Shown here piece by piece: positions 36,839 to 64,000 of a stretch of DNA of 64,000 bases. Where the stretch lies: contig OX467089.1 of the NCBI GenBank assembly GCA_950106755.1, positions 23,293,345 to 23,357,344 on the forward strand, written 5' to 3'. The position numbers and the translations under genes were made by a program. This DNA comes from Climacium dendroides (Eukaryota > Streptophyta > Bryopsida > Hypnales > Climaciaceae). The number at the start of each line of letters is the position of its first letter. Positions within the stretch are counted from its first letter, which is position 1. A model generated the notes under the pieces. It did no database searches. It was not told where the DNA came from and worked only from the letters and a program-made list of their open reading frames with translations.

Positions 36839-38147
36839 ATGGATGCATGGAGAGCGAGATTAGCAGCACATCAACAAGGGATGTGCAAAGATGACAAAGA
36901 AGAAGACATCATCTTCAATAATTTCTTGGATCAGGTTTGTGATGATGATATTGATGAGCCAGAGATACATGCGAGAGGATCCAGGCCTGGACGACATGGA
37001 AATTTGAAGAGAGAGAAGCAAAAAGAACATAAAAGAATGTTTGCTGATTATTTCTTGGGGACTCTATTTTATGGACCTATGCATTTCCAACGGCACTTTC
37101 AAATGCAAAGACTGCTATTTCTATCCATTATGGATAGGGTTTGTGTTTGAGATAGATACTTTCTACAAAAACGTGATGCAATTGGGAAATTAGGTCTTTC
37201 TTCCATTCAAAAATGTACCGCAGCAATTCAAATGCTAGCATATGGAATTACAGTAGATGCCACAGATGAATATTGTAGAATTGCTGAATCAACAACCATG
37301 GTGGCGATGAAGCGATTTTGTAGTGCTATTCAAGCAAAGTTCGGCAAACAATACTTGAGGCAAACCACTAAAGTTAATTTCGAAAACAGCTAGCCATAAA
37401 TGTCGAGCGTGGTTGGCCAAGAATGTTTGCATCTATTGATTGCATGCATTATCGTTGGAAGAATTGTCTAGTGGCCTGGCAAGGAGATTATGGTAACAAG
37501 GATAAAACAAAATTCATTATACTTGAAGCCATAACAGACCAGGGACTATATATATGGTATGCTTTTTTTGGTTTGCCAGGTGGGAACAATGATTTAAATG
37601 TCTTGGACCACAGTCCCCTAATACAGAACATGCTAATAGGTGAAGGCTGTGATATGGGATTTGTAGTCAATGGTGTAGCATACAACCATTACTACTTACT
37701 TGCCAATGGCATCTACCCGCAATGGTCTTGCTTTATACAGACTATACATGCACCTGATGATGAAAAACAACGTCACTTTGCTCAACAACAAGGCAGTGCT
37801 CAGAAAGATGTGGAAAGATGCTTTGGTGTGTTGCAGGCATGATTTGCCATAATACAAAACCCTTGTAGACAATGGAGTCTCAAATGCATTTCTGACATCA
37901 TATATGCATGTTGTATTTTGCACAACATGATTTTGGAAGATGAAGAAGAGGCGGGCTTAGATTTCCTGTTCGATGTGGATAGAGTTCTACCGATACATCA
38001 GAATTTATCTTATGATGATTTAGTAATGGGTACAATGATTTAGTAATGGGTACAGTACAAATAGAAAACCAAGACACACACTATAGTCTTAGAAGAGACC
38101 CTGTAAAGCACTTGTGGAGATTGAAGGGTGCTGCAAGTCACAATTAA
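36839..38147 (+). pseudogene. PIF/Harbinger transposase (HARBI1-like nuclease), degenerate
   Basis: ATG 36839 opens MDAWRARLAAHQQG. The frame runs through LGLSSIQKCTAAIQMLAYGI and ATDEYCRIAESTTM, then after a frameshift near 37390 continues with MFASIDCMHYRWKNCLVAWQ (first catalytic Asp), ILEAITDQGLYIWYAFFGLP, GGNNDLNVLDHSP (second Asp), and QKDVERCFGVLQA (catalytic Glu). A C-terminal tail ending HLWRLKGAASHN stops at 38147. The DDE triad and flanking motifs are those of plant Harbinger nucleases. Lesions: TGA 37148-37150 and TGA 37840-37842, both where relatives have Arg (CGA), the frameshift, and a 20-bp microduplication at 38015-38054 that shifts frame. No companion Myb-like frame and no clear terminal inverted repeats were found. 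Confidence 0.9.
38015..38054 (+). repeat. 20-bp tandem microduplication in the Harbinger pseudogene
   Basis: ATGATTTAGTAATGGGTACA occurs twice in direct succession. Removing one copy lets the frame continue to the family's C-terminus, so the duplication is a lesion. Confidence 0.9.
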
Positions 38148-42035: not shown

Positions 42036-45000
42036 CTATGAATCTGATTGTACTGCGAATTCATCTATAAAGTTAAGAGCACGGGGGTCAACTAGGTGGG
42101 CCCTAGCTCGTGGTCTAGGATTCAGGGTAGCAAATTCGTGAGCCAATGCATCAGCATATACGGGGAGGGTAAATGGCTTCGGTGGACTAGGAAAGAATTG
42201 AGGATGAGAAAAGAAAGGGACATTTGCCGCTGTTGTCACGCTGTGGGCTTGCCTAGAAAACGAAGTTATCCACATGTAAGTTAGATGGTTAGAAACTAAC
42301 GTATTTCATCATGCAAAGAGGAAAAAAGTCACAGGATGACTTACTTACGGAATCTAGTAGTCTTCACAATAGCTTGAATAGGGACTTCATCCTCATCCAA
42401 ATCGACTGGTACATCAGCCGGTTTCAGGTGGTTTAGGGTTGGGACCGACGACCGTGCGCATAATTGGAGCAATAAGTGCATCAAAAATAGCCTTATCCTC
42501 CTCGAATGCAAGAATATGTCGCAGTGTGGCACAACAAGCTTGGATGGTTGCACCTGAAAATATGAAATAAGTATAAGGAGGAGGACAAAGGGAAAACAAC
42601 CGAGTGCTGAAATTGATGATCCTGACAGTGGCAAGTTAATGCCAAAGTACCTGTAGCGGCTGTGCAGTCGACCACAACGTCCCCTGGTTTGCTGCATGCT
42701 TCCACAAGCATCTGCATGAATTCCCGAGATTTCTCTCGAGGTCCCCGCCATGGTATATCTCCATTCATGGTCACGTCATTCTTGTTGCAGAAATTCTGCA
42801 GAATGTCATCCTTACCCACATTAATACCCACAGCGTCGTGGAATTCCACGTATTGGAAGGGGTAGTCATCCTCGGACTTCGGTCCGTTCTCTTTTACAAC
42901 GAGAGATATGGAGAACCGCATAGTCTGCAACAACTAAGAAGTGAGGATTAAACACTATTGCAGGAAATCATTCAAGCACACATAGACGTGGGTCAGTACA
43001 TTACCGTCTTAGTATTGTCTGCTGGAGATGTTAGGTGAAGGCGGTTCATGCCGAACCATGTCCGAAGTATCTTGAATTTGTATCCTTGGCAACAACCAAG
43101 AAGTTGGCTTCTATGGGCACGAGAGAGGGCTAGATATATTACCAGAATACTTCCATAGTCATGGAGGTATGCTTTGGCAAAGTCAAAGATTGGCACTCAC
43201 CAATCATCTGCAAACACATTCTACTTTGGTATAGGTGCAGGAAGAGTCGAGAGTGTAGGAATATGAAGGCCATGAAGGAACATCCACAATGACCAAGTCC
43301 ACTGTAGCCTCACGCTTCAGGACTCCATTGAAGAAGCGTTGTTTGTCACTTGAATGCTGCAGGAAAACATGAGGGATAATTACAAACATAGTATAGGCAC
43401 ATAGAACTTCAGAAGGGAGTTGATGAAATTGCACTAATATGTGAATGATTACAAAAAAGCAAAAAATATATGAATGTAGGGCTTGCTTGAAATGTACCAT
43501 TGAAAGGAACGCATTCACGTCATCAAATGTTTTCTTCTGATTTCGTAAAGCGGACAGCAATAGGTTCAATATGCACTCGTCTACATCATGCATAGGGTAG
43601 TGAGATGACGGAATAAGCTCGTGGACCAAGCGCTCTTGAGTAAGCAAAAACCCTGAGGACCCTTCTTTCACCTCAGCTGCACTTGTAGCTGGTTCGGGGT
43701 TAGGAGTTTCGGCCTTCCTCTTGGTACCCTTCTTTTCCCCCTTCTCAGATTGGGTTGCCTGTCACTTTTTCTTGATGTCGTCGGACTTCCTCTGTGCTTC
43801 TTCAAGCTTCTCTAGCTTTTTTCTATCAGAGACCTCCCGCCTTTGGATGCATCTTGCTCGCATCTCTGGATCAAGATGAGCAAACTCATCGAATTCAGCA
43901 TCAACAATAGCAGTATCCTTCAAGGTCTGGAATAGAGCCTCTTCCTCTAGCAGAGTAGTCCCAAAGATGCATTCTATATACCAAAGACACGCTTGCAGAT
44001 GTGGACTTGTCCACTTCGTCAATTGTATGGGAGAAAACATGCAGTCCGGAGAAGACCGATCTAACCAAGTAGTCAAAAACGGTGGTAAATCTGCCTTCGC
44101 AATTGCCTTCTTGTTGTACAGCTCAAACTTGAAATACCTGCGTTCAATGCAGGATTAGTCAGCTACCTATATAAGAATAAGTGACGGTACAATAAACTAA
44201 GTCACGCTGACCTTGAAATGTATGAAAATGAATGAACCTAACTACCTGCAACTATGTCGTATGAGAATGAAGTCCAGCCTCTACTTCTACAATAGTGTAG
44301 AGGGTGAGAGGGAAAGAAATACTAGGTCTAAATCATGTCCCACTTCATCTAGGGAACGCGAGAACGTTTGCAACATATTCATAAGAGGAAAGAATGAAGG
44401 CAAAAGGGTAGTGCATTGGACCCTCCAAATATGATTACAACATGATTGTCCCAATGAATTAAAATGCCACAAGATGTTCTAGACAAGGACAAACACCTGT
44501 AAATCACACGCTTGACAACCAACGCCGACCCTCTGAATTCCTTGAAACTGTCTGACTTCTTGAAGGGGTCAGCACCCTTGAAAACACCGGTAAAAGCAAT
44601 ATCCCAAAGCTTCATCCGCCAGCTCTCAATGTACTCAAGCAATGTCATTGGTTCGCTTGGAATGCTCATATCGATTGGAATATTGTCAGCCCGAATGATT
44701 GAGTCAAACATGTCGTTGGCTGACTCCTCGATCTGAAAAAGTAAATGTAAACACATTGAGACCAAGTTGTGCAACACAAAATGTGAAATAGTAATGTATT
44801 AATTTCAATAATGAAATTATGAGATATAACTCTTACTCCAACATACCAACACGCTCTAGCAAGAAATTGAGTCAACCTCTCCTCATTCACAGGACGAGGT
44901 GGAAATCGGCGGGCCTCACGAGAGGGACCGGAAGCATTCATCCACTTGAGCCACCTGACTTTTAAGTCCGGAGAGACGTTTGCTGTTGCAATCAACTGTA

Positions 45001-48000
45001 ACTTCTCTAGAGTCAACTCATGAACAGCAAAAAGGCTCCAATGTCGCTCTATCTGCATCAAGAAATAAAAAGGCATCGTCACTGAAGAAGAGACAAAAGG
45101 ATGAAGAGCAAAACCAATGGTTCTATGAAAATACCTCTTTCAACCAGTCAGGTCCCAATGTCGGATTTGCAACGGCTACAATTTTTGAGAGCTTCTTGTA
45201 TAGCTTCTCTGTAGAATCCTTAATCGATGCCCTCATAGCATGGGCAACTCCCTCTCTTGTAACCTCATCTTCAGGAGTGTCCTCATGATACTTTCGGATT
45301 GCCGCATCAACAGCTGTGGCTATCTCTTACTGAACAAACATAGAGGACTCCACAATCGTTATCAATTGAATGCATGATACTAAGTTTGAGTGCTTCATGA
45401 AATTTGAATATGAGTTCATGTTACTAATCACATTCATACCTTAAAAATAAATGATGTGAAGACATCCAAGGGCATAGAATACCACGACTTTCGTGTATTC
45501 TGTTGACATTTTGCCTTCTCCTCAGGACTCAGCATTTCATGGAATTTCTCAAGCTCAAGTACCCCATATTTCTGGACGCGGTAGAGTGTATGAACCAGGT
45601 TGGTCTTGACATGTGAGTTCTCGGTATGCCTGCAGTAAATAAAAATTTAAGATTAACTTGAGGAATAACTCCAGAAAATAGAGCATTGTCGAAGAAAATT
45701 ATTTTGATAGATGATTGCAAACGATAACAATGAGGTTGGTGTATACTCACTTGTTAATATCGTGCATTGCCTGCATTGCAACTCCAATCCGATGCCTTGT
45801 GTCTAAGACTATTGAGTCCACACAAATGTGCCAATCGCGATCTGCTCTGTGGAGGCGCTCAATGTGATTCATCCAGATGATTCGTCTATGATTTCCATCG
45901 CAGACAAAAAACTTGTAGTCCACCAAATGCTTCAGGACAGTCTGCTCAAGCTTCTCGTTGAATTCATCATTCACTGCATTCCATGTAGGTCCCCATTCTT
46001 TCTTCTCAACATCGGTAAATACTGCCATTTCACCCGCCTCATTCGATATTGAGACATAGAAGACTCTTGCGCCCTCTTCGTATCCCCGACTGAATTGGTT
46101 CTTCAACAACGTCAAATTGCACAAGAGTGTATGCTGTACCATGGGCATTGGAACTAGACGACATAAAGGTATCTTCAATCTTGATTGGTCACTGGATGTC
46201 AATCTCAAGCTATGAATGATGGACACAATGTCCATCGTCTGCGATTTTCGAATTTCATCTTCCATGTAGTGCGGTTGAACCCCTGGAATTGATATCTCCT
46301 CAGCTTCACCCTCATCATCCTCCCTGTCACCTATAGGCGCATGAGCCCTAGCAGTCATAGACAATACTCTTGATGGTGATTTCTGGAATGCAGGCTCCTG
46401 CAGATTGAACAAGACAATGGAGTTGCAAATGTCATATACATTTCATATACAAATGCAATGAGAGGTATCTTGTAATGTAAATTAGTAATTGACAACAGGA
46501 TTTTCAATCAGAGTGATTTAGAATGGAGTCCGACATTTTGAATATAATAGAACGAGTAATTTATGAACGTTACATCATCAAACACATGTCCACAAACCGC
46601 ACTCTCTAGTGAACACAATGTATCTTTCAAATCAATATAAAATGATATCCTCTGGGGTAGTAAGCCTGGATGACACATCATCAGTAAATATAAGATCCTG
46701 GTCCCCGGACCCAACAGACGTACAACAGGACTCTGAAGTATCCGTCAGCCCCAAACTGTAAAGGTCATCTACTCCCTTCTGAAGTTCCAGAATCAAAATT
46801 TGAAGATCGTATGGTACCCTTGGTTGCTTCTCTCGGAATCGAATGTCGGCATCTATATCTACCATTACAATCTCCATGGCCGCAGGAGCAGGATCTAGAA
46901 CGTTTTGAACTTCAACAACGCTCTCATGAATTTCAATCTGGAGATGGAAATAAGTAGAATCCGGGCATAAGAAAGACAATCAATCATCCCAACAAATCAA
47001 GACAAATCTACTTCAATGCAATTATCTATTCATAATGTGATGCAGTTGTACTTGTAAGATTCACACTAGTGTGAGTGCCATCAATATCATACCACACTCA
47101 GGGATCATCACTTTGCAGGATAAAGATAATGCCAAGACTGTCTATAACTGATGTTCCATGTTTAGACGATTGGGATTTAAATCCTATTGGGTCTGGGATA
47201 GTATTTATAAGGACTTGACTATGCGTAAAGCATCAAGGGGAGGAAATTGCGTAAAGCATCAAAGGGGAGAAAATTGCGACTACCATGATATCCATGCATG
47301 GCTTTAGACCCGCAGAGGATGTCTCGGGACCGAGACAGGTGTCCGGATGACGGAGCCATACATGGTTCTGACTAACCTAATCCGAAGGCCTCTGACTTCG
47401 GGACCCAAAATGCCATATCTCAGCTTATCAAGAACCTTTGTGTTCATAAGCAAGACTATCACTGTTGGATGTGGGGCGACTCGAGAATCATAGATACGGG
47501 AGTCCTGTTATAAGCCAGGCATGATGCCAGGCATGATGCCAGGCCCTCAGAAAACGTCTCGGGACTGAGACAAGGGCCACGGTCAGAGAGCCATGCATGG
47601 TTCTGACTTACCTAATCCAAGGCCTCCGTCATCGTGACCCGAAATGAAATATCTCGGCTTACCGAGAACCTTTGTGCTCATAAGCAAGACTAATCACTGT
47701 CGGAAGTGGGGCGACTCGAGAATCATAGATACGGGAGTCTTGTTATAAGCCAGGCATGATGCCGGGCCCGTAGAGAATGTCTCGGGACCGAGACAAGGGC
47801 CACAGTTAGGGAACCATATATGTCTTTTACCTACCTAATCCAAAATCCTCCATCTGTGGGACTCAGGGTGCCATATCTCCGCATACTGACACTCCTGTGT
47901 GTACACAGCACTAGACTGAGACGGCTACGGGGAAACGCAACAGTGAACAATACAGAGGTCCTGCCTAGAACCATGCATGAGACTCGGCTTGCATGAGACG

Positions 48001-48376
48001 TCTCGGGACCGAGACTGAATCCACGGTGAGGGAGCCATGTATGAATTTTACTTACCTAATCCAAAATCCAAAACGTACTCTCGATTGAGGGTGCCATATC
48101 TCCGCTTACCGCCTCACTCAACGATACGAAGGTCCTGGTAACATTCAGGCATGGTAATCGGCCGTAAAGAGCGTTCTCGGCCCCAAGACGGAGGTCCTGG
48201 ACACTGAACTGTGTGTGCCGTGTGAAACTTTACACAAACCTAGAATGGTTCCACTTGTTCCGAGAGAGGATTAGGGTTCAGAGTACCTCAACTGCGGCGG
48301 CGGGGCGTTCTTGCGTGAGAGCAATATCAATCTTCTTTCCACCTTGATTTCTTCGAGGACACAAAACTCGATCCAT
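42036..48376 (-). pseudogene. Gene A: ParB-like / permuted DNA-methyltransferase-like fusion protein, pseudogene
   Basis: Exons on the minus strand: 48376-48287 (MDRVLCPRRNQGG...), 46937 to about 46677, 46397-45751, 45629-45440, 45329-45135, 45052-44837, 44732-44497, 44137-43498, 43356-43005, 42924-42651, 42553 to about 42356, and about 42261-42036 (stop). Exon 3 holds a ParB/sulfiredoxin-like domain with CDGNHRRIIW (45902-45873). The middle is helical and charged. Exons 9-11 hold the methyltransferase-like domain: DVPS in place of DPPY (about 43284), then WRGPREKSREFMQML, VVVDCTAATG and RHILAFEEDK, i.e. motif IV before motif I as in beta-class enzymes. Lesions: TAA 45329-45327 where gene B has CAA, TGA 43764-43762, a 1-bp insertion near 43272 (exon 352 bp against 351 in gene B), and a frameshift near 42430. 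The splice pattern matches gene B. Confidence 0.82.
47281..48190. repeat. Tandem array in intron 1 of gene A, unit about 220-235 bp, one near-palindrome per unit
   Basis: GTCTCGGGACCGAGAC stands at 47321-47336, 47779-47794 and 48000-48015. One-base variant GTCTCGGGACTGAGAC is at 47556-47571, and a decayed copy (GTTCTCGGCCCCAAGAC) is near 48173. Between them the units share GAGCCATGCATGGTTCTGAC, CTTACCTAATCCAA, GGGGCGACTCGAGAATCAT and AAGCCAGGCATGATGCC words. Arms GTCTCGG/CCGAGAC can pair around a 2-base centre. The array lies between exon 1 (ending 48287) and exon 2 (starting 46937). Confidence 0.9.
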
Positions 48377-49793
48377 CACTGATGACCTTCAAGAAGCACA
48401 AAAGTGTTTCCACATATCAGAAATCCAAGAGTAATCCATAATACTGAATATCAAAATGATTTAGATAAGTAACGTGAGAGTGGTGGAGGACCTACCAAAC
48501 TCTCCACAGAGTGGACGACGAGGCGGGGATCACGATCAAGGCGGCAGTTGCGTGTAGAGGGGAGTGGCACGACCTTCTCCTTAGTGGTAGTGGAGTCGCT
48601 CGCCGGGCATGGCAGTTGACGGGCTTCTGCTTTCAGGGTTAGGGTTTAGATGGAGACTCCGCTATTGCTGGGGAAGTCTATGGACGGTATCTACGTACAT
48701 GATACAGTTGGGATACAGTTGGAGTATAGTCGCGATACAGTCACACTGATGATTTAATTATCTCAAACTAACAAGAGAACCACCTCGTTTTCCATCCCAG
48801 CAACAAATATCGGGAGGAGCAAAAAATTGCATGAGCAATTGATACCATAATGATGCACCAGAATCTAAATCAAGAATGACCAGCATAATAAGGGACCAAG
48901 TTGGGCTAATTCTCTTTTCATTGGACCGTTAGGCATGTTCATGAGGAATACACCTATGGGGTGTCCTTCGCAATATCTATTATGTAACCTTGAATCCGTC
49001 ATTCAGCGTACCTCAGTTTGCTTGCCAACATTGGTTTTGCTGAAGTCGTCCAATCTGTGCCTTCTCACTTCATCAAGTCTCAAGTACAGGATTTAATAAA
49101 TTCTCCATTTTCATTGTGTCTAGAACGTGGAAACCGCATGTTCATTGCCGCACATATCAAGGTCATTTGTTTAGGGGCCTGGAAGGGGTTCAATATTGGG
49201 ATCAGTATGAAGTATCTCTGTATATTTAGAATATAAAATTCATTTGCAGTTCTTCAAAATGCTCCATAATCACAAGATTATATATGATATCCTTTTATAT
49301 TATTTGGTAGGTGACTTAGATTGTGGTCAGTGTGTTCGTCTACCTATAACGGGTATATTTGGCTTGAAAATGTTAATGATTATGATGAATCTTGAGATTC
49401 TATTTCACTGTACTAAGCGGACTATGCTTCCTTGCTACAGACTGCTCTCATAAATATCACCATAGTAAGTAATACTTATATAGACGTCCCTGACTCAGTA
49501 TTAATGGAATACCCAATACATTTAATTCCCTATTTAATCTTTGTTTCTCTGACATTTCTCAATTTATGAGACGCCATTTTCATACTACATTGTACATGTT
49601 CAGTTATTGCTAATATTCACTGTTCACATGCTGAATTTATGGTTTTATGATTTTCAATCCTTTATTCAGAGCATTTCAGTTCGATTGCGCTAATGTTCTG
49701 TATGAAATATAGTCTCTGGTTATAGTGTCATTTCACCCTTAGATTGTTAAACCTTAGGAGGTGCAGGGATGATGCATTGCTTCGACTGATAGC
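48377..49793. other. Upstream of gene A; no firm gene
   Basis: GC-richer up to about 48700 (probable 5' leader and promoter of gene A), then AT-rich. A plus-strand open piece at 49018-49236 (IGFAEVVQSVPSHFIKSQ) and one at 49244-49453 have no recognisable content. Confidence 0.4.
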
Positions 49794-51326
49794 ATGACAG
49801 GATCTTCAATGGCAATTGTGAGGGCACATGGAGAGTGTATTCCGATTTCATTTCCTGTGGGCGAGTTGGGATATGCTATTGTCAGTTTGTCTCGATTGAG
49901 TGCCCATTTCCTACTGGCGGATAACTCATTAGATATTGACGAGGAAGTATTTGATAGTATAAGTGGTGACCTGACGCATACTATAAGTCAAGAGCCCTCT
50001 GTGTGTGGCCTTGTTAGGCAATGGCATTTGCGTAAAGGTCGGTATTTAACATATGGATTACCGCAATCGTGTGCAGGAGCATCCAATGCAGAGGGATCTG
50101 TTAGAGTTTCTAGGGCTAGTACTTTCAAGAATACTGTAAAAATTGAGCCTGATGTGGAGGTAATTACCATTGGAAGTGACAACTCTGATGGTTCATCTCC
50201 ACCCTGCAAACTTTTGAAACCGACATTGTCGCCTGCAGTTGGTAGGGCATACTCATCCATCTCGCCTTCTCCAGATATGGTGACACCATCATCATCTTCC
50301 CGTGCGCCATCAATTGTTTCATGTTTGCAAAAGCTATGCCACACGAAGGGTTCTAGGAATCCATTCAAGAGGATCAATTGGAACTCAATTAGAATTTGTA
50401 GTGTCCAATTTGTTCCACCTGAGTTCAACGGTGATGTGATATTTGAGTTACCACCCGTCAGAGATGTTTCAGGAACTCACAGTCAGGCTAAGCTTCTCAC
50501 TGGAATGGAGAAACACTATGATGGTTACGTTTGGACAAATCTTCATACGACAAATATAAAGAATGCAGACAGCCTGACATTTCGGTTGGCATCTTGCGTG
50601 GGCCACCTACGATGTGACAACCTGAGTTGCGACTATTTAACTCGAAAGCACCATGTAGCTCTCATCAACGAGACTGAATGGGATGGTTGTTCTCCTGTTC
50701 CATTTGAGGTTCATGATATTCCTCCAGTTGGTTCCAGTATCACATGCAAGATTTGTTCGACTGCTCCATCGTGTATTGGTAGTTGTCCTGCGAAAATCTA
50801 TTATGTTGTTGGGTCACAAGACATGACTCGGGCTTGTGTTCATTTCGGTATTCACAACCACCCTGTGAAAGATGGAGACTGCCGGGACTCCATGGATAGA
50901 ACTCGGTCCTTGATATCAGACCAAGTTGAGCAGAACCCATCTGGAACAAATTCTGCTATTGTCTTGGAGGCTAGCAAGGAATTCCTTGGAGAAATGCTAC
51001 TTCGACCCGAAGGAGCTACACCTACCCTATTTGGTCTCCAGGAATTGATGCCGATTCTGGAGAAATGCAAATTCATGAGTTCCCCAAGTATTTGAAATGA
51101 AGTCAGTACGTTCAAGTACTTCCGGCGCTTTGGAGTCATGGACAGCATCACAAAGCTTCGTGGCTGTAGCAATTGGGCTTTTGTGCAGGAAAACAAATTC
51201 CCTGGTCAGGAATCCGACTCTGACAAAGTATTTGTGTTCAAAATGTCCGAGGTTGGCCCCGAAAGTGGGGAGAATGCTGGTATGCGAGCGGGGGTCTGTG
51301 AGTGGCGAGCTGGAAGCGGGCATTAG
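49794..51326 (+). pseudogene. Transposon-like protein with Cys/His-rich DNA-binding-type region, truncated
   Basis: A 433-codon frame from ATG 49794 ends at TGA 51093-51095. The same frame stays open past it (TFKYFRRFGVMDSITKLRGC...) until it runs into a dispersed repeat near 51268. The protein has a Ser/Pro-rich acidic middle (VEVITIGSDNSDGSSPP...) and a C-terminal Cys/His region: RCDNLSCDYL, SITCKICSTAPSCIGSC, then RACVHFGIHNHPV. The final C-x-H...H-x-H pattern is reminiscent of the WRKY-GCM1/FLYWCH zinc fingers found in Mutator-like and related transposases. No DDE domain is present; the repeat insertion removed whatever followed. Transposon origin is inferred; the exact family is unknown. 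Confidence 0.5.
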
Positions 51327-51730
51327 TGAGCAAGGAGTGGTAATATTGGAAGAAAAAAGAATGGGTTTAAGAAAAAAGTAGGATTAAAAAAATGAGATAG
51401 TGGATGAAAGAAGGAATGAAAGCGGATTTGAAAAATGGATGAAAAAGTAGATGACAATGGATGAATGTAGTTGGATTTTTGGATGAAAGTGGATGAATGT
51501 AGTTGGATTTTGGATGAACATGGATGAGAAATGGATGAAAGTTATTGGGATTTTGGATGAATGTGGATGAAAAAGTGGGTGAGTGTGATTGAAAATTTGG
51601 ATGAAAGTATATAATAAAATAGATGAAAATCAGTCAAGGTTAAAGACATTCCCATTGTTGAATTTAACTTGGTGTTTTTTATACTACAAGGCCATAGTCC
51701 ATAGTAATATAGGATCCTATCACCGTGGGA
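51270..51730 (+). repeat. TGGATGAA-rich dispersed repeat, copy 2
   Basis: Starts GAGAATGCTGGTATGCGAGCG, matching copy 1 at 40638, continues with many TGGATGAA units (51410-51610) and ends near TATCACCGTGGGAATGTTTA. It truncates the frame of the gene at 49794. Confidence 0.65.
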
Positions 51731-54042
51731 ATGTTTAACCCCTAAAGGTTCTTAACTATGTTTTTATCAAAACCACTTCAGAATTGTCATTTCTACTACA
51801 AGTACCAAATAGTTTTTTAAATTTACTATTGGACACATGTGACTATAGGAACTTGTAGTACACTAGTTTTAAAAGGTGAGGAAATTTCTACTATATAGAT
51901 TTCAAGATATTAACATTTGAATTGCCAAAGTACCTTTTGTAGTCCTTGCAAAAACTTGAGAAGCTTGCACTTCACAAGGTCACATTTGAATGAAAAAAAG
52001 TCCAAAATGGTTGAATTCTTTTGATCTATTTTAGAAAATTGGGTAGTTGCTCCAAAAATTCCACAATATTTAGGATTGTGAAACATATAGGAAAAAAATA
52101 GAGAATAGATAGAAGTAGAGAATGTTTCAAAATACTAATTTCTTAAGAATTCAATTATGGAATTGAAAAATGCCGAACCCAATGGTTGTGATGTTTTAAT
52201 AAAAAATCAAAACCCAAAGACTTCAAATTTTGAACAAATATTAAAAATTGAGTTAAATAAAGAACTCCAAAGTTCATTTTAGAGTGTAGAATCCTTATCT
52301 ACCCGCATACTAAAAATGCTCATAACTTGTGACTTGCATAGACTTAGAGGAAATAAAATAATATATTTTTAGATGCCCTTTGGTAGGCCTATGCCTACCT
52401 TTTGTGGAAATAGACTACTAAAATTTCAAATCTAGATCATTCAATTTAAATACAATGAATGTAGTAAGAACCTCTAAACCTCAAATTGTTATAAATTATG
52501 AATATTCAATTATAGTTTTTAAAAATATTATTTAAGAAAATAAGGGATGTGAGTGCCATCAAGTTAGACAAGTCCACTAATTATTTCATGTTCTTGAGAC
52601 TTAGGATTCAAAAGTTATAGCAGAAGAGAAAAATCACTCCAACTATGATGAAGAATAGGACAAGTGTTTCTTGCAATGACCACATGGACCATAGAAAGAT
52701 TTGTGTCATCATATGTAGTATATATAATGTTGGAAAAAACATGTAAATTTTCAAAGAATAAGTGCTCCATTCCATGTTAAGATCAATGATCTACTTCATT
52801 TTTATGGAAACTGAAGTTTGATTGCATAAATTTCTATACTAACAAAAAGCATTAGACCAAAATTGTGTTTGAGAATCTAAATACATTGCCTAGATCTTTC
52901 ATTGACAAGTTATAACCATAATTGTAGTGAAGTCTTTAAGGTACACATTACAAATTTGGTCAAACTTCATGAGATATTGGACTGCCTTTATGAATAGCAC
53001 AGTCAAAAGCCAATCCAAAGAAGTACTTCAAATCATACAAGTAACAATACAAGTTCTTTCTGAGTTCTTGAAAGGATCAGTGGATTTAGAATCCAAGGTC
53101 ATTTTCACCACCAATGTGCAATACTCTGCCAAAGTTTGCTTGCAAGGGTCAAGAATACTAATCTACCATGTTGTGACATACTTAATGATTTCCCTCCTTG
53201 TTTCCATGAACTCCAAGTGTTGTTTTGATGAAGTTTTGAAGTTTCTAGGGACTCATTCTATGCAAATTTTGCATACTACTTGCATCCAAAGGGTATTTCA
53301 AGGGGATATTATTATTATCTTTAATATTATATAAAGTACCTTTTTGTTATATAAAATGCTAAAATTGCATAATTAAAAGTGAAGGTTTGTTTATTTGTTT
53401 GAATTTTGAATTTTCCAATATACAACTTCACTACAAAAACAAAAACACTAATTTTCCAATATATAACTTTACTATTAAATTTGCATATGTATTTTGATAA
53501 TATGGTGGTAGTTTTATTACAATTCTAAATCATTTGTAGATTTGCCTTATCCTCCATTGAGCAATTGATGACTACAACATCATACATTCAATGTATAAGA
53601 TTACCCCCCTCCAAACCCAATTTTCATAGAAAATTATTAACCTTAGATGATGTCAATTAACATTTTTGAATGAAATGGTTGCTTATAAAATTTGAAAAAC
53701 AACATCTATTTAAAATACCCTTTGTAAGTTGTAATTGTATGAATGGCTTTATTGGTACTTTTGGATTAAAAAAATAGTTTTCAAATTTTTTCCACCATTT
53801 CTTTATTGGGCCCCTATGATTGGACATATGTATTTTCTAAGCCTAACATATAGGGAGCCCCCCAAGCTTATAGTAGCCATAGCTTACCTTGACCTTGCCT
53901 TGGTCTTTCCTGGAGCGATTTGCCTCGAGTCTGTTTACTTTCCCCCAAAGCCCTAGGGTTATCGCTAGACTCTGCACAGGAGCTGTCAACTGTAATGAAA
54001 ACGAGATGTTGAGTAGAAGAACAACATCCTAAAGTAACATGC
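51731..54042. other. AT-rich stretch without genes
   Basis: Starts TTAACCCCTAAAGG, the same word as the piggyBac-like end at 20496, but no matching right end was found. A 135-codon plus frame (52927-53334) has no recognisable motif. Confidence 0.4.
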
Positions 54043-54911
54043 TTTTGCGATAGGGCCTTGGTTTCCGTGGGTCACATTTTCTCTTCTAACGAGAGAGAGG
54101 CTGCCTCTCTGGTTGGAGCTGGGACACCTCTGGAGCTGATCGAGCGGCTATCAAAACTGGGTGCTGAGGTGCACTTCTATGCAATCTCTGCCACTTTGGC
54201 TCTCAATCATGTGTATGGATTTCTTAAGTTGGATAATGAGCTTAGTCGACGATGCCTGAGGTTTTATGGAAGCGAGTGTACTGTACAATCCAGTTTCATT
54301 AGTCCCGTTCTGCAGTTTAATTCTTCCATTTAGTCCGGCCAGGCTTCCCACAATTCTATTAATTGATTGATTGTATACACTTGAGCATACCCTAGTGAAG
54401 AGCCCATAATTAATACTTTTGCAGATTGTTGTGTTACGACGGGGACATCTGGGCAGTATTGTGCACCGGTAAGAGCATACGTGTGCTACTAGTTTGGAAA
54501 CAAATCAATACACATTCTTGTTAGTCCTCCTCTCTCTCTCTTAATATCTGATGACTTGAATTGGTCTCTTTGGTTATCTGAGAAATGAAATGTAGTCCAG
54601 CCTAGTCTAGCCCCAATATATACCCTGAAATATTGAGTTGATGAGATTGGTGGGTGGTGTCAGATCGGATACTAAAGAGACGTGGGATGTTCTGGCATTT
54701 CATACAATATTCTCTGACACGAGGGAGGAGAATGGTGACATGCACATGACCCAATTGGAAACTGAGGCCAGTCTGGAAGGAATGGACGTGAAGGCCATTG
54801 TCGATCCTACAGGATGTGGAAACTCCTTCTGTGGAGGCTTTCTTATAGGATGGTACAAGACCCGGAACTTGTTAACCGTAGGTCTCTGGGGAAGTGTTTT
54901 CGCCAACTTCA
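54043..54911 (+). pseudogene. pfkB-family carbohydrate kinase fragment (MAK32-like), three exons
   Basis: Exon a ends at 54168 (SVGHIFSSNEREAASLVGAG, phase 0), exon b is 54425-54468 (IVVLRRGHLGSIVH, phase 2), exon c is 54664-54911 (SDTKETWDVLAFHTIFSD... then VDPTGCGNSFCGGFLIGWYK). The phases join cleanly. D-P-T-G-C-G-N-x-F is the pfkB C-terminal signature with its catalytic Asp region (many relatives have D-T-x-G-A-G-D), and GCGN variants occur in the MAK32-like branch of plants. The N-terminal half with the substrate-binding GG motif is missing and no following exon was found. It lies tail to tail with the CSTF77 fragment. Most likely a captured or relict gene piece rather than a working kinase. 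Confidence 0.75.
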
Positions 54912-55846
54912 GTAAGCCGTTCTTTCATCTACTTCTCTCCATCTGCCACTCGTGCAAACCCCTGTTGAAAGCGCTCATGTTGAGAAAACAAATAGCATCT
55001 AAGAACAGAGTTTGCAATAAACTGGAGTTTTGTAGTAATAGTATTATAAATTGTTTCAAGAACTACCAATTTCACTATAGAAAGCATCCTCGTTATGATT
55101 CACGTGATCACTCTACTGATACGAAGACCTATGCATGAAAATCATGGGAAAACATAGCTTCCAGCCTTCTACTTTTTGGAAACAATGCACCTTCAATGAA
55201 AACTGAAAATCATGTTCACTTGCTAGTAAACCCTCAGTCTGTTGAAATAACTCTTAAAATCACAACAATTCATCTAGAATTGTTGTCATGTATTGTTGGT
55301 GTCAAGTGTCCCTCTATCTTCAAGGATACTCAAGAAGCGAGTTCTTTGTTTGAGGAGGCGGGTCTATGTGTCGAAATCTGAGTTTCCCAATATCCAGAGT
55401 TGCCGAACTTATCATACGTCTAAGTTAATTGCAGCATCTAGAGCATAAGTTAAGTGATATATTCTTGTCATTTATAGTTTCTGAGCTCTTGAACTTGATG
55501 GATAGAAGGTGAAAATAGGCCAGATAAAAGGTGAAAAATGTTCAGCCATGAGTCATTGAGGTACAAAGACAAGTTATACAATACTCAAAATCAGAACAAC
55601 AAGCATTCATAAACTGCACAGTGAACGAGTCATCCACAATTCACAAAAAAATCTGGCACTCTGATTGACAAGACATCTCATACCACCACCCTGACAAGCC
55701 ATGGTACCCCCGTATTGAAGCATGTACAACCCAGACAAAGGATGGCCATTTGAAAAATTCAATTTTATTGAACCCCATAAGTGCATCACAATTGGTGGTT
55801 GTTTCACTCCTAGACTTTGACTCTCATAAAAGGGCAAGCAGCCAAC
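54912..55846. other. Gap between the pfkB and CSTF77 fragments
   Basis: No further exon of either gene could be recognised. Short frames only. Confidence 0.4.
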
Positions 55847-57654
55847 CAGGGCACGGCTGACGAAATTCTCAAAACTTTCATATTCCTTCCAAATCTGCTC
55901 AACCATGTGAACAGGGGCCAAAATAGCTTTCTGATAAGCCTTACGCACTGTCGTCATCCTGAATGACTCTTCTTGCGGAGTCACAACCTGCTCATCACAT
56001 TGATCCAGTACCAAGATCAGATTTGTGAGGTAGCTAAAATCCCTACATCGGGATAATTAAGAAACCAGAAATGGATCTCAAGCTACTTGACGAGAAGTGG
56101 AAACAAAGAGAAAAGTTAAGAAGAACCAAAAGAAATAGTCAAACCACTTTCAAGCAACTGTGAACTTACAGGGGAAGCTTTCAAAAATGATATATATTCA
56201 AGCCAAACGGGACCTGCATTAATATCAAACCCTGTTTCACATCCACATATTATTTTGGTCAGAATATCCCACCGTACGCCACCTTGGTAAAGTTTCTATT
56301 CCAGAACTGGAAACATGATATTCAAGTATATTCAGATGCCTGAGAAAAAAACATCGAACTTGCAAAGATGAAGAACGCACCACTATGGCCAAGCATAAAC
56401 TCGAATGCCTTTTTCATCTCGTCGCGCCCTTCGGTACCTCTACTGTCGTTCACTTTCTGCATATACCGCAGATACACTCTCCTGGAATACCATCAAATCA
56501 GTAATTCACTTTCCCTCATTCAATAATTGCAAGACGCCCCAAACAACATTAATAATACTCATATCCAAGGTTTAGAGTTGAAGGTCCAATTCTGACTTGA
56601 ACTTCTATGAATAATTCAAACGGAAAACACTCGGGAACTTGCCATATCAAACCACTCTAGCAGACCCAGGTCGCTAACAAAAAATATGGCTGATAAATTC
56701 AGAAGAGGAGGTTCTTAAAACAGCGACACAACTTCTAGGACAGGCAATGCTAAGCGTTAATCTGAAAGATCTAGGAACGTGCTTCGGCCATACCTAGTTC
56801 ATACTCCATGACAAACGTTCATCTACAAACATCGTCACACATCGTAGACCTTGAAACCTAATGATTTGGAGTAAGCTTCATACGAGTAGTTCAGAATTAG
56901 ATTTCACTAAGTTAAAGGGAAAATTGGAGAACGGAACTAACCAAAGGTCCACGTACAGACACTGAAGCAAACATCGACTAAAAATCTGCTTGACAGCATC
57001 GTCATCGTTTGTTGCAAGTTGAGCTTCCACATAAAGTCTCCAGAACTTCGCCTGCAAATAAACCTTTGTAAGTCTCATCTAATCTCCACTTTTTCTAAAA
57101 CAAGTAGCTGCAAGTGCTCTTCCAAGAGTTCATGCGAGTACTTCTAAGGTCCAATCTCTGATAATGTTTGCTGCTGAACAATCTCCTCAAATAATTGCTT
57201 ATTGAATCGCAGACTTTGGACATGACAGGTGCATGGTAAAATATGTAGAACTGTACCGATGTTGGGAATCTGGAAAGCAACTCCTCGTAAATTGGAGCAG
57301 CATCACCAATTGCCTTTGTCTGCTCAGACACAACATTCGAGTTGTCACGACCAAAACCTCATCAAATCAAAAAAGATGCGCGAATTACCTCTCGAATACA
57401 TTATAAATCACGAACAAATGCTCGTCAAATCCGGCCAGGAGTGGGATGCAATGGCACAATCGTTGGGTCTTAAGTGCGCGCACACTCTGAATTTAGCCCA
57501 CTACAAAGCCCCAAAAACGGCCAAACGGCACAGCTCACCAGTCACTCAAATTCATAGCAATGTTCAAATCTCTTACCTGAGCTTCGCTACAATGTCCATT
57601 CAAGGCCTCCAAATCGTATAGGTTTGCTTCAAGAGCCTCCCGAGCACGACGCTC
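55847..57654 (-). pseudogene. CSTF77: CSTF77-like N-terminal HAT-repeat exons (cleavage stimulation factor subunit), fragment
   Basis: Six minus-strand exons join in frame: 57654-57577 (ARRAREALEANLYDLEALN-like), 57319-57257 (IGDAAPIYEELLSRFPTS), 57051-56942 (KFWRLYVEAQLATNDDDAVK...), 56481-56381 (RVYLRYMQKVNDSRGTEGR...), 56231-56170 (GPVWLEYISFLKASP) and 55987-55847 (TPQEESFRMTTVRKAYQKA...). All have GT and AG borders. These are the HAT (half-a-TPR) repeats of the polyadenylation factor CSTF77, which scaffolds the CstF complex that binds GU-rich downstream elements. The exons show no stop, yet the rest of the protein (usually about 700-plus residues) is absent on the left, where the pfkB fragment begins. 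The start exon lies somewhere in 57655-58480 and was not resolved. A truncated gene copy is most likely. Confidence 0.8.
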
Positions 57655-59046
57655 CTACCATAACCAGAAGCAAAAACACCAGATTATGAACCAAACTGAT
57701 TACCTATACCTCCAGCTTACTCAGTAGTTTTGCTCAAATAAAATCCGCACAAAATTCATAAAAATTCACAAAATCTCCAATCCGTTCCACATTCAAATAA
57801 TAGTTTCTTGAAAATTAAAAGTTGTACAAAATAAAGACCTTTGAGCGCCGCTCAAACTAGAACCAAAAGCAACCACGAAAAACACACAAACCAACTTATC
57901 AACACAATTATTACACACCTCCAGCTCATTCAGTACTTCTGTGACTCAAAAATCCTCACAAAATTCAGCAGCTTGACAGAGAAACTAAGCCCTCGCACAT
58001 TAAAATCAGAAACTGCAACTCACATTTTATGACATGTAAGTCGCGCTGTTCGACACGACAGAAGCTCCTCCACTCGGCGCCAGGCAACTTTTTGCTTATG
58101 AGAATGAGAAACATGAAATAGACTTTGCGGTTTAACGCAAATCCTCGCACCTGTTCCTGCTTGATCACCCTTAACCTTCCCTAAACGTACTCGCACAGCC
58201 CAAATCCCAAAGTCCTTGGTAACAAGATCCAACGCAAACCTGAGAGATCACGACCGATCTATAAACTAAAATTGATAATTCCTGCAATTCAAACAAGAGA
58301 CTGAATCCGTTAGTCACTCAATCCAAAGAATACCCTAGCCTCTCGACCTCTGGTTCTCGCGAAACCTGCGATGAAACCTTGCAAGGATAAGTCCCAATCT
58401 CTTCCAAGCCCTTCATCCCTTACCCTAGGAAACAAGCAAGGGTTTAGGGTCATCGCCGAGGTCGCGGACAAGCGACATTAAACATGAGAAACGGGCAGAA
58501 GATGACAGAAGATGCAGAAGCTGAAGCGGGCAGGGAAATTCTTCACTTGTTGATAAGACATGCTACTAAACACAAAACAAGGCTCCACCATCGCCGGAGC
58601 TTGCTCTCCTCGAAAATGAAAGCTCCACTTCCGTGTGAGCTGATTCTGCTCCACTATCCCAGCCAGACCGCGGCCCAACCTTCCGCCATTTTTGGCTTCA
58701 CCTAAACCCAAAATGCAGCAACCGAGTAGACACCACAAATCGTGCTCCACAAACGCTGAAATGTTGAGATGTAATCACTGTGCTGTTGCAAAAATGTGGA
58801 TTGAACTCAAGCTGTAGGAATCGTAAGATACTGCAATAAGACGTGGGACAAACTTCATCCATTTTCAGGTAACCCTAACCTCATGCGATGATTACGGCTT
58901 GACTTACACTTGCTCTGCCGCCCTTCCCCACCTCTTTCTTCTTCTCTTGCACCGACTCTACTTTGGCCATCAAAATTCAACTGCGGACTGCCGTGTACAT
59001 GCTCCAAATTTCTCGAATAGGGCTAGTTGTGGATATTTTCCTGAAG
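57655..59046. promoter_or_regulatory. Divergent upstream region shared by the CSTF77 fragment (-) and gene B (+)
   Basis: Composition rises in GC/CpG toward 58330-59140, as expected around transcription starts. CSTF77 reads left from 57654 (plus unresolved 5' exons), gene B reads right from 59047. No TATA element or named site can be defended. Confidence 0.4.
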
Positions 59047-62000
59047 ATGGCGGAGAGGGTCCTGAGGTCGAGGAGCGCGCAACGAGGGGAAACTTCCGGC
59101 GGTGAAGCGGAGAAGACTGCTCCCAGCATGCTATTAGAGGTAAGTGGGATCGATGATGCGCAAAGTCTACTGCCCTGAGGTTACCGTCTCGGGACCGAGA
59201 GGGCTCTCTCGGAGAGTTGGGCACGGACAACCTTGTCTCATGAAATGTCCTTCTCAAAATATAAAGAACCTTCGATAGAGCTACATGATTGGTTTCGGTG
59301 CATTGGAATATAGTAACAAATTCTTTTTAAGCTTCTAGTTGCGAAATGCTCGAAGGTAGGAGACAGTAAAGTATCCTCTCGGTCCAGAGAGGGCTCTCTC
59401 TAGGGGTCTGCCTCAACGCACACTCTCTTCTGCATCTGTCTATGAGATGTGAGGTCTTAGATGAGAGCCTTGTCATAGCGTCAAATGTAGCACAATATTG
59501 ATGATCGGAGCTTCATATACAACATCAAAAAAATTAATTCTCAATCTGATTTCAGTCCATGCGTAAACACTAATGACCATCCAATATCGTCTCGGGACCG
59601 AGAGGCCTTTTTCGGGAGGCGTAGTTTCGGAGAATGTGTCTTGTTTGATTAATGTTGAAGATTCTAGCTAAGGTGGAGCTTTGAAGGTGCTGAAAGCTTG
59701 TGTTGTGAACGTCATTGGAGCTTCACTAGATGTTTATGGATTTATTTGGATCATTATGTAGAGCTTGAAAAGTAATTATTGTTAGTTTGAAGCCTTGATA
59801 TGTGCAAAGGGTAGTGTCCTTTGAAAACCCTCTCGGGCCCGAGAGGCCTCTTTCGGAGAAGACTATTTGAAACACCTGATATTTGCATTTGTCCAAGATA
59901 ATCACAAATAGGCCAATGATTTGTTTTGGATTGTGTTGTAGGTTGAAGCTCTAGTGGCCGAGGAACATCCAGTAGTACTTATTGATGTGGTACCTGAAGC
60001 AATGGTGCATGATGGATGCCCCGAAGACTCAGAAGTAATGCCAATTTCTCACCAAGTGTCTGGATCTATATTGCAAGAGGGTAGTCTCCAACCGGAGATT
60101 ATTTCCGATGATGAGTTAGAGGACTATGAGATTCAAGGAGTGCCCAAGGATGCAATGGAAGATGACATCAGGCGGTCCCAAAAGCTTGACACTGTGTCCA
60201 TCCTTCATGGATTGAGATTGACATCTAATGATACTTCTCGGATGAAAATTCCTTTATGTAGATTGGTTCCGATGCCAATGGTGCGACCTACTCTTGCTTG
60301 TGACTTGACTTTGTTGGAAAATCAATTCAATGGAGGTTACGAGGAAGGAGCTAGAGTCTTCTATGTTTCTATATCAAACAAAGATGGCTAGAGTGGTGTT
60401 TTCACACCTGCCGAGAAGGACGAGTGGGGACCAATTTGGAATGAAATCAACCATGATTTCAACACTTACCTCATGTCACAGGCAGCATTGCGACATTTGG
60501 TGGATCACAAGTTTTACGTATGCGATGGAAATCATAGAAGAATTGCATGGATGAATCACATTATGCGATTGCATGCAACAGAGAAAATATGGCACATCTC
60601 TGTGGATTCAATCGTTTTAGACACACGGAATCGAATTGGTTTGACGATGCAGGTTATGCATGATATTAACATGTGAGTGTTCCATTCTCCACTATGCTTG
60701 CATTTTTATGATGTACTCAAATTCTATGAATTGTAATATGATATAATATGATTTTTTTCCATGGTGTGAAAGGCAAACAGAGAGTTATCATGTGAAGACC
60801 AATCTCGTACACACGTTATATCGAGTTCAGAAGTATGGTGTCATGGACATTGAGAAGTTTAAAGAACTTCTATCACCGGAAGATGTAAACACCTGTTTGA
60901 TGGTTACCCGGTCTAAATGGTACTCTATGTCCCTCGAAGTCTTCACATCATTCATTTTCAAGGTATTACTTCCACCATGTTTTTGTAATGATTTCAAGTG
61001 TTTTTATATGAATTTTTATATGTCGATATAAAAATGTTTATGTTTATGTTCTTTTCGTGTCTATTTGCAATTTTGTAGCAAGACATATCTGCAGCAGCCG
61101 ATATTGTTGTTCGTAAATACAAAGAGAACACTCCTTGTGAAGAGGTGACGTCAGATGGTGTTGCAGCCGCAATGAGGAGCTCTATCAAAGATTCCACCGA
61201 GAAGTTTTATAAAAAAATGTCAAAGATGGTGGCTGTTGCTAATCTGGCTCTGGGAAAAGACTGGCTTCTTGAGGTATGCCTAAACCATCATTGATCAAAT
61301 CTGCTCATATCTTCATACATGATGTATATTAAATTCTAATTCTCATGCATTGCATTCTTGCAGATCCAAAGGCATTGGAACCTTTTTGCAACTCCGGAAT
61401 TAACCTTAGAAAAATTACAAATGATAGCCACAGCCTCTACAAGTGCAGAAAACAAGATTAAGTGGCTCCAGTGGATGAATGCATCTGGTCCTACTAGAGA
61501 GGCCCGACGCTTTCCTTCTCGTCTTGTCAATGAAGAAAAATTAATGATTTTTTTGGCAAAGGCTTGTTGGTATGCTGGGGTAAGTTTTCTTTTGATAAAT
61601 TATTAATTATATTTTATTTCAATATCCTTCAATTATATTAGTATGATTGTGTATAACGTACAGGAATGACCTAAAATTGATGTCTAACTTTGTATTTAGA
61701 TGGAAGAGGCATCATGCGAGATGTTCGACAATATTGTTCAATCTGACAATATTCCAATCAACATGTCCGTTCCTGCCGAGCCAGAATCATTGATGGAGTA
61801 TATTGAAGGTTGGAGAATGAAACTTTGGGAGACAGCTTACACAGGTGTTTTCAAGGGAGGAGATACTTTTAAAAAATCCGATAATTTCAAAGACTTCAAA
61901 GGGGCTATGCTCGCTGTCAAGCGCTTGATATATAGGTTTGAAAACTTGCCATTTTACTTACTTATGTTTTGAGGCTGATGTTATGGATTACAAGCACATC

Positions 62001-64000
62001 TAGATGAACTAGCTAGTAGGACGTCAAATTGTAAGAAATATCGTCTGGAATATAGATTCTGATTTTTTAACCAATGTAGCTTTCATTGTTTAATGTAGTT
62101 CTTGTCTTTCATATTCTTGGAATAATTATGTTGGAATCTCTATGGACTTTATATACTATTTTATTTAGGTAATTGATTTTGAATTTAATATGAATAGGTA
62201 TTTCAAGTTTGAGTTGTACGCCAAGAAAGCTATCGAGAAGAAGGATTTGCCACCTTTTCTTACAACATGGTTAGATAGATCATCATCGGATTGTATGTTC
62301 TCGGCTTATCAGCTACGGAATTGGACGACTCCACATCTCCAAGCTTGCCCATGGTACTTGGAATGCAATATAGGATGTACTCCTGCTGAAGAAGAAGCTC
62401 TCTTCAAGACATTGACAGAGAATGCTATTACAGAGCCGGAGTTCGATGAATTTGCTGGATTGGACCCAGAGGCCAAAGCCAAAGCTATAATGAGACGAGA
62501 AGTAGCTGACAAGAAAAAAGTGGATCGATTGGAGGAGACAAAGAAGCGGATGGAAGAGAACAAGAAGAAGCGCTTGGCCAAGAAGGTTGATAGAGAAGAG
62601 GAGAAGTCCAAGAAAAAAGGCACAAAACGAAAGGCAGAGGAGTCGGTGCATGAACCAGCAACAAGTGGCATTGGAATGAAAGATACTTCATCCGGATTTT
62701 CCCTCACACATGATCTTTTAGTACATGGTCTGACAACAACCATTCAAAATTTCGGCCCTATACCTGATATTGACGAGTGCATTCTCAACTTATCGGTGGA
62801 GAGTCTCCCAAGTGATAATAAGGCCTTTGATGCTGTCTTGACATTCTTAGACATGGTATGTTTCTATTTCGTATACTTTTAATATTGTGTTCTAATTTGT
62901 TGTCAAGTAGTTTCCAAATTCAATTAGAATTCAAATGTGCTTTATTACATATTATTTTAGTTTCTTATTCATTTGGAACTAACGATATTTAAACATTAAT
63001 GTCTTCTACAGCATTCTAGCGATAAGGATAGATATTTTGATGGTATGTTAAACACGAAGCAGGCGGTGGACCTCATCATCGTGGATGTCCCCAAAGGCCT
63101 TCATGTTCCAACTGTTTCAGCTCCGCCGAGCCCTATTCCAAAATGGAATGAGTTCAAAAAAGATTCATTGGTTCCTATTTTCGACTTTGCTCAGGAATAT
63201 CTCCATGACAAGGGGGGCCTTCTTATCATGTATCCAGCAGCTTCTATTCGTCACAAAAGTTTTCTTCTTGGTTGTTGTGAAACCTACGGATTTAGAATAA
63301 TCATGACATGGTTAGGGATGAATCATCTGCATTTGACATCGCCAGCCGATCCAAAGAAGACGGTATGATTAATCCTAACCTCATATTTTATTTCCTTTGA
63401 TTTACAATTGATTTGCATTTGTACTACTTTCTAACTTCTGAATTTTTGTAGACGATGCGATTTTCTATCTCTCTTCTTGTGAGGGAATCTGGGCCAAAGA
63501 CTGATATTGATTTTCCATTCCAACATGTTCCTTCCCATGAAGAGGTAGGTGTCAATATTGCTCGTGATGACATCTTGCAAAACTTTTGCAACCGCGATGA
63601 TGTAACCATGAATGGAGACATTCCGTGGCGAGGTCCTCGGGAAAAATCTCGACACTTCATGCAAATGCTTATAGAAGGGCTATCACAACCAAGCGACGTT
63701 GTTGTGGATTGCGCAGCAGCTACAGGTAATTCCTTCTTTGAATTTAATAATTGTGGGACTCTTATATAATTTGAAATGTGTTCATACTATATTTTTCTTA
63801 TATGTGTTTGGTTCATTTCAGGTTCAACTATTCAAGCATGTCGTGCAACTCGACGACATATACTAGCCTTTGAGGAGGATAAATTGATATTTGATGCCCT
63901 CATTGCACTTGTCATGCGCAAAACTATGGTATCTCCCGAACCAGCCCAATCAAATCCTTCAACATTTGACGTGGATGAAGAAGTGGTTGTTCCTGATCGT
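59047..64000 (+). CDS. Gene B: ParB-like / permuted DNA-methyltransferase-like fusion protein (runs off the window)
   Basis: Exons: 59047-59139, 59942-60672, 60773-60962, 61079-61273, 61364-61579, 61700-61935, 62198-62855, 63012-63362, 63452-63725, 63822 to the window end; all borders GT/AG and all phases consistent (over 1,000 residues so far). Exon 2 holds the ParB/sulfiredoxin-like domain (IPLCRLVPMPMV near its start; CDGNHRRIAW at 60521-60550). Exons 3-6 are helical. Exon 7 ends in a Lys/Glu coiled coil with a basic KKKGTKRKAE stretch that may be a nuclear signal. Exons 8-10 give a methyltransferase-like fold in beta-class order: IIVDVPK (63084, motif IV place), GFRIIMTWLG, WRGPREKSRHFMQML (motif X place), VVVDCAAATGST (motif I place), RHILAFEEDK (motif II place). 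One TAG at 60389-60391 falls inside the ParB-like domain. Start chosen by match to exon 1 of gene A; an in-frame ATG also exists at 58963. Confidence 0.82.
59186..59846. repeat. Palindrome array in intron 1 of gene B
   Basis: Four copies spaced about 190-240 bp: GTCTCGGGACCGAGAGG at 59186, a decayed CCTCTCGGTCCAGAGAGG near 59376, GTCTCGGGACCGAGAGG at 59589, and the perfect 18-bp palindrome CCTCTCGGGCCCGAGAGG at 59829-59846. Most are followed by a second arm-like word (CTCTCTCGGAGAG or TTTCGGAG). The array fills intron 1 (59140-59941), the same position as in gene A. Confidence 0.9.

Follow-up and report, generated by a model that had tools for sequence, protein, structure and literature searches.

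Palindrome arrays 5' of decayed ParB–methyltransferase-like genes in Climacium dendroides, candidate pieces of a mobile element with possible parS-like self-recognition

Two broken gene copies

The stretch analysed here, 64,000 nucleotides of the Climacium dendroides genome (contig OX467089.1; hereafter the window), carries two copies, A and B, of a gene that joins a ParB-like domain to a methyltransferase (MTase)-like domain, and 5' of each copy lies an array of the palindrome TCTCGGNNCCGAGA. The copies are of the same gene type and point away from each other, A on the minus and B on the plus strand, as an earlier, sequence-only reading of the stretch had described. That reading proposed 10-12 exons; nine are found in each copy, and a tenth in copy A (about 42250-42036) is recognized by eye only, as it is in the tail of a stop-free genomic copy. 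Copy B runs from 59942 to the window end in a single reading frame with eight GT-AG introns. The nine homologous exons of copy A, also with GT-AG joins, extend from 46397 to 42345, and exons 2, 3, 4, 5 and 8 are equally long in both copies (190, 195, 216, 236 and 274).

59942..60672, plus: copy B exon 1, ParB/sulfiredoxin (Srx)-like domain, in-frame TAG at 60390
60773..60962, plus: copy B exon 2, middle region
61079..61273, plus: copy B exon 3
61364..61579, plus: copy B exon 4
61700..61935, plus: copy B exon 5
62198..62855, plus: copy B exon 6, Lys/Glu-rich
63012..63362, plus: copy B exon 7, MTase-like domain, DVPK at the motif IV position
63452..63725, plus: copy B exon 8, MTase-like domain up to motif I (DCAAATG)
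63822..64000, plus: copy B exon 9, truncated by the window end
45751..46397, minus: copy A exon 1, ParB/Srx-like domain, uninterrupted
45440..45629, minus: copy A exon 2
45135..45329, minus: copy A exon 3, in-frame TAA at its start
44837..45052, minus: copy A exon 4
44497..44732, minus: copy A exon 5
43498..44137, minus: copy A exon 6, in-frame TGA
43005..43356, minus: copy A exon 7, motif IV region, frameshift and stops
42651..42924, minus: copy A exon 8, up to motif I
42345..42553, minus: copy A exon 9, second frameshift

Both copies are broken: in A, exons 3, 6 and 7 contain stops and the frame shifts at least twice (exons 7 and 9), and the TAG in exon 1 is the one stop of B. The comparison of A with B spans 820 codons, taken from exons 1-6 and 8 and part of 9, with three stop-bearing codon pairs excluded. 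It gives proportions of synonymous (pS) and non-synonymous (pN) differences of 0.79 and 0.22, with a bootstrap range of 0.25-0.32 for pN/pS, and third codon positions are 44% identical. Intron similarity stays at the level of shuffled sequence in six of eight cases, the exceptions being introns 5 and 7, which score slightly above the best of 10 shuffles. The saturated synonymous sites and the pN of 0.22 show that this is no recent tandem duplication. Taken together with the unalike introns, they indicate that A and B are old paralogues whose protein was long under selection and was disabled later.

The ParB-like domain

A search with the ParB-like exons, which drew on 2070 candidates, gave 352 relatives at E ≤ 10. 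Of these, the best 120 have E-values from 3e-96 to 2.5e-57, and the DGxHR signature (GxxR) reads DGNHR in 112 of them and NGNHR in one, while none was found in seven. An AlphaFold model of the domain made with these relatives reached a predicted local distance difference test (pLDDT) score of 77.5; an earlier AlphaFold-type structure from three sequences only, with a pLDDT of 32.5, was useless. Among the 31 solved structures shown to resemble the model, 29 are ParB, Noc, KorB, PadC, sulfiredoxin, SerK or SbnI and two are uncharacterised. Foldseek alone ranked ParB first, with an E-value of 0.15. By its modelled fold and GxxR signature the domain belongs to the ParB/Srx superfamily, which bears out the fold assigned from sequence alone. 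The catalytic Cys of sulfiredoxin sits in GCHR. Its position is taken by Asn here (DGNHR), so that the domain does not qualify as a sulfiredoxin.

Pfam ParB matched neither copy A nor copy B, and ParBc (PF02195) matched none of 123 family members at E 1 in a Pfam scan whose hits, from 23 families, included DUF1015 in six members (best 0.002) and DndB in one (0.094). In the PDB, a sequence search with the 123-sequence ParB-like profile reached no ParB chain and gave just one of KMP-11 (E 0.12). The ParB-like part as a tblastn query returned two chance-level phage records and no plasmid. Carriage by viruses was also considered and rejected, as three protein scans of viral contigs returned no relative. 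A whole-length protein search also found no relatives, presumably because its candidates were limited to proteins of similar length; exon-sized queries gave the 352 relatives above and the 51 described below.

The MTase-like domain

Pfam and phage searches, which the sequence-only reading had suggested, matched the MTase part. Exons 8-9 match Pfam N6_N4_Mtase at E 9.2e-5, under the curated cut-off, and a methyltransferase in PHROGs at 4.4e-6. Tblastn against phages gave 135 records at E up to 1. The 20 listed, with E from 0.01 to 0.2, comprise MTases and a putative methylase, and almost every alignment crosses exons 7 to 9. When copy B is combined with part of A into a profile, this matches five such phage proteins over 192 columns, with an E-value that is flattering since these five were picked for matching. 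The permuted beta-class order, with motif IV before X/I, is thereby confirmed.

The motifs themselves are altered. Copy B has DVPK in place of DPPY and AAATG in place of MGSG, and the stop-free genomic copy has DVPE. Exons 7 and 8 have 51 relatives among 351 candidates at E 1e-3, and the catalytic [DNS]PP[YFW] occurs in 0 of these 51. In 34 of the 51 the motif IV region reads DVPEGL(P/H)V or close to it, without an aromatic residue, in a search whose expression itself demands a DVPEGL-like shape and which left 17 fragments unscored. Contigs of sizes 4168, 555475, 63784 and 1021 are common to the lists of ParB-like and MTase-like relatives, which suggests that both kinds of exon lie on the same contigs. 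Because motif IV is altered, the MTase-like domain may bind rather than methylate.

A repeated 20.8-kb element

The ParB-like core has at least 150 dispersed matches with 57-100% identity, scored among 954 candidates, on many contigs of the 412.6-Mb genome; the window itself lies on contig C38. Two copies on contig C1 are about 99.2% identical over 20.8 kb, after which the sequence ends sharply in unrelated flanks. On one strand this unit carries a palindrome array, the ParB-MTase gene, a palindrome pair on the 3' side of that gene, and further open reading frames of 524 and 734 amino acids (one copy translated) that form a second long gene. In contrast to A and B, the ParB-MTase gene of this unit has exons 1-8 free of stops (950 amino acids). 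The 524- and 734-residue frames, on our reading, resemble a transposase whose front part is rich in Cys and His; the only Pfam match of this gene has an E-value of 0.14, and the 734-residue part had no match in the PDB. Neither a terminal inverted repeat (TIR) nor a target-site duplication (TSD) was seen where the unit ends in the two C1 copies. A scan of the window gave 9 TIR+TSD pairs, fewer than the 19, 13 and 15 of block-shuffled controls. Three stretches of the window are related to the unit:

59157..64000, plus: 97.1% identical to the 20.8-kb element, including copy B
58499-59238: part adjoining the copy B stretch, 85% identical to the element
49808..51268, plus: fragment 83.6% identical to the second-gene region (transposase-like by position and reading only)

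Dispersed, near-identical, multi-gene copies with sharp ends, here judged from two full copies, are characteristic of a DNA transposon. The idea that these are host genes, kept and duplicated, looks unlikely in view of the dispersed matches, the repeated unit with its second long gene and the broken state of both copies.

A distant homologue

The only match in a genome collection, L009, is a 4.7-kb contig filed in a cyanobacterial metagenome-assembled genome (MAG). It has the same domain order, about 32% identity to the window ParB exon, DVPE as motif IV, and introns whose places, judged by eye, agree with those of window introns 1, 2, 3, 4 and 8. L009 is very probably eukaryotic DNA because its introns are at matching positions, and its presence in the cyanobacterial MAG is a probable contamination. 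The shared intron positions at this degree of divergence support the earlier view of a long residence in eukaryotes.

Palindrome arrays

With up to 2 mismatches, TCTCGGNNCCGAGA occurs nine times in the window against 0.56 expected, a count that 0 of 100 shuffles reached, and all nine sites are 5' of a gene copy:

47322..48188: array of five TCTCGGNNCCGAGA sites (47322, 47557, 47780, 48001, 48175; 0-1 mismatch), 5' of copy A
59187..59844: array of four TCTCGGNNCCGAGA sites (59187, 59377, 59590, 59831; 0-1 mismatch), 5' of copy B

Comparison of one array with another gives a similarity of 83-86% for the core and of 26-30% for the flanks. L009 has three exact TCTCGGNNCCGAGA sites upstream of its gene, the only three in its 4.8-Mb MAG, where the reversed pattern is absent. 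Conservation of the site thus holds in A, B and L009 although their flanks are unrelated. When exact 6-2-6 palindromes of any sequence are counted, TCTCGG is the sole repeated half-site in either place, with 6 of 33 palindromes in the window and 3 of 5 in L009, a coincidence to which we assign a chance of about 1 in 4096 by our own estimate. For exact 5-n-5 palindromes TCTCG-N4-CGAGA comes top in a full-length copy (5), in window A (3), window B (3) and L009 (3), as well as in two subfamily C copies (10 and 11); it ties with GGCAT-N-ATGCC in window A, and the other ties are overlapping names for the same sites. No GC-rich palindrome occurs more than once in 22 control stretches of the window, the GC filter being applied to the controls only. 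Successive sites are 107 bp apart in the full-length copy (L059) and 106 and then 216 bp apart in L009, where a degenerate site lies between (by eye).

Genome-wide there are 422 TCTCGGNNCCGAGA sites and 33 for the reversed pattern. Placement was examined for 50 of the 422, all on C1, against 17 ParB matches on that contig, two matches past the last listed site being excluded. Among the 50 sites listed, 30 are found upstream of a match at distances of up to 2.5 kb and 11 downstream at up to 5.5 kb, where 0.19 are expected; the other nine are elsewhere, five of them in one array without a listed ParB match. At 30 loci of A's subfamily, A included, 71 sites (≤1 mismatch) are upstream and 0 elsewhere within 3.4-kb stretches, with at least one upstream site in 28 of the 30 and at least two in 25. 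Palindromic sites close to a parB-type gene are what ParB-parS systems display.

Two copies of subfamily C have a variant palindrome, TCTCGCCACCGAGA. Subfamily D was read in two copies, with three GTCGGNNCCGAC sites in one and a pair of imperfect sites in the other. Because these sites are few or imperfect and an unrelated palindrome is likewise repeated, twice in each copy, subfamily D may at most hint at a pairing of site and protein.

Most of array A lies inside the second of two diverged direct repeats, at 34032-35431 and 47306-48109. A palindrome-pair scan of viral contigs returned only a phage-like contig from IMG/VR (L010), apparently a phage or plasmid, with 15 exact TCTCGG-NN-CCGAGA palindromes in 14 kb, nearly all TCTCGGCGCCGAGA; no ParB-MTase relative was found on it.

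Possible roles and alternative explanations

In view of the above, we consider A and B to be decayed pieces of a multi-copy mobile element, likely a giant DNA transposon, with parS-like self-recognition of TCTCGGNNCCGAGA, and put the probability of this at roughly 0.6. The accessory gene would encode a protein whose ParB-like clamp domain is followed by a long charged middle and by a domain derived from a beta-class MTase, the catalytic motif of which is altered in the relatives examined. We take the ParB-like protein to bind the palindromes because arrays of a 14-bp palindrome beside a ParB-fold gene look parS-like. The domain would recognise the arrays within about 2 kb upstream of its own gene and load onto them in dimeric form, possibly acting as a sliding clamp that depends on a nucleotide, cytidine triphosphate (CTP). 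Loaded protein could then mark or bundle the element's own DNA. The downstream effect might be control of its own promoter, resistance to silencing, or gathering of element DNA for transposition. A working ParB/parS-like segregation or self-marking system on a transposon family, with an MTase-derived reader and with palindromes that change along with the protein (TCTCGGNNCCGAGA in A, B and L009, TCTCGCCACCGAGA in C and GTCGGNNCCGAC, at few sites, in D), is a tentative extension that we hold somewhat less probable than its opposite.

The best surviving alternative, which we nonetheless find unlikely, is that a host transcription factor uses the palindromes as ordinary sites in a promoter or enhancer, or that they are repeats able to form hairpins, and that the ParB-like domain has another role. 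Their position in the 5' region of the gene would suit this, and array A sites contain TGTCTC/GAGACA, which we take to resemble an auxin-response element. The TG before TCTC is missing in B and L009, and an auxin-response site was rejected since it is not kept there. The recurrence of the palindromes amid unrelated flanks at a homologue from another source also argues against host-factor sites, as do their dyad shape and size, which resemble those of parS.

Slightly less likely still, the MTase domain could be an active N6-adenine or N4-cytosine methylase that the ParB-like domain targets to the element's DNA. The beta-class motif order and the conserved PWRG-REKS and motif I region are compatible with activity, and methylation of the own transposon is what the authors of PMC12477816 propose for an Ectocarpus protein. 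Activity is disfavoured by the altered motif IV, with no [DNS]PP[YFW] in the relatives and no aromatic residue in the 34 scored ones, and by the DVPE that L009 also has at 32% identity. If the domain is a non-catalytic reader, the self-methylation guess for such proteins needs revision.

Spread of a host gene family by segmental duplication, without a transposon, is improbable: the unit ends without TIR or TSD, the strong purifying selection between A and B and eight clustered, alternating C38 matches favour it, but the many near-identical matches on many contigs, the sharp ends, unrelated flanks and second long gene (two copies compared) and the published transposons that share the architecture (PMC12477816) do not. 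The clustered matches, 92-93% identical, occupy 0.7 Mb of C38 (about 16.09-16.79 Mb) in strictly alternating orientation. A tandem host gene pair is disfavoured by copy number and saturated synonymous divergence.

Other features of the window

The segment 4087-22037 is likely a CACTA/EnSpm element because perfect 16-bp inverted CACTGGGAACTTTGAA ends and a TTG duplication surround a Transposase_21 (tnp2) match at 12833-13237 (E 5.2e-5, below the cut-off). A PIF/Harbinger-type transposase is found at 37378-37839 (Plant_tran, E 7e-58), a Suppressor of forked-like fragment at 55607-56056 (Suf, E 3.2e-10) and a weak PfkB-like fragment at 54629-55138 (E 0.061).

Comparison with known systems

Apart from this candidate, and within the open-access literature searched, we know of no partition-like system that serves mobile DNA of the nucleus. 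That some eukaryotic transposons encode ParB-MTase proteins has already been noted, and what is new here are the TCTCGGNNCCGAGA arrays 5' of the gene; an open-access literature search gave no paper describing a palindrome target for such proteins. The closest counterpart is Sola1-1_Ec32 of Ectocarpus, a transposon of about 21 kb with a transposase gene and an accessory protein of about 1000-1100 amino acids that has ParB-like and N4/N6 MTase domains (PMC12477816). Going by its published description, the two domains and the protein and element sizes are alike, and the putative transposase gene here would be a further likeness. In Sola1-1_Ec32 the accessory gene is on the opposite strand to the transposase, whereas here both long genes are on one strand, and the published passages on it mention neither a palindrome array nor a lost catalytic motif and name no target beyond the transposon's own sequence.

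ParB-like nuclease/NTPase domains are described in mobile elements, and Bce_0392 is cited there as a ParB-methylase fusion (PMC5512222). This protein and the Mycobacterium phage Vincenzo DNA methylase likewise combine a ParB-like domain with a DNA methylase. Both are methylases by annotation or description, whereas the present gene is rich in introns and has an altered motif IV. With beta-class N6-adenine/N4-cytosine MTases (PF01555) the present domain shares the permuted order and the motif X/I region, and it differs in that DPPY is typically DxPE, GSG of motif I is xTG and the score is just below the Pfam cut-off. The fold, a GxxRxxA-like motif and palindromes clustered near the gene recall the bacterial ParB-parS systems (ParB, Noc, KorB), from which the present one differs in being eukaryotic and in its other palindrome, its MTase-derived tail and its regularly spaced arrays (about 107 bp). 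The conserved array beside the gene offers a concrete DNA target, so that a role in binding, sliding, silencing or transposition is directly testable.

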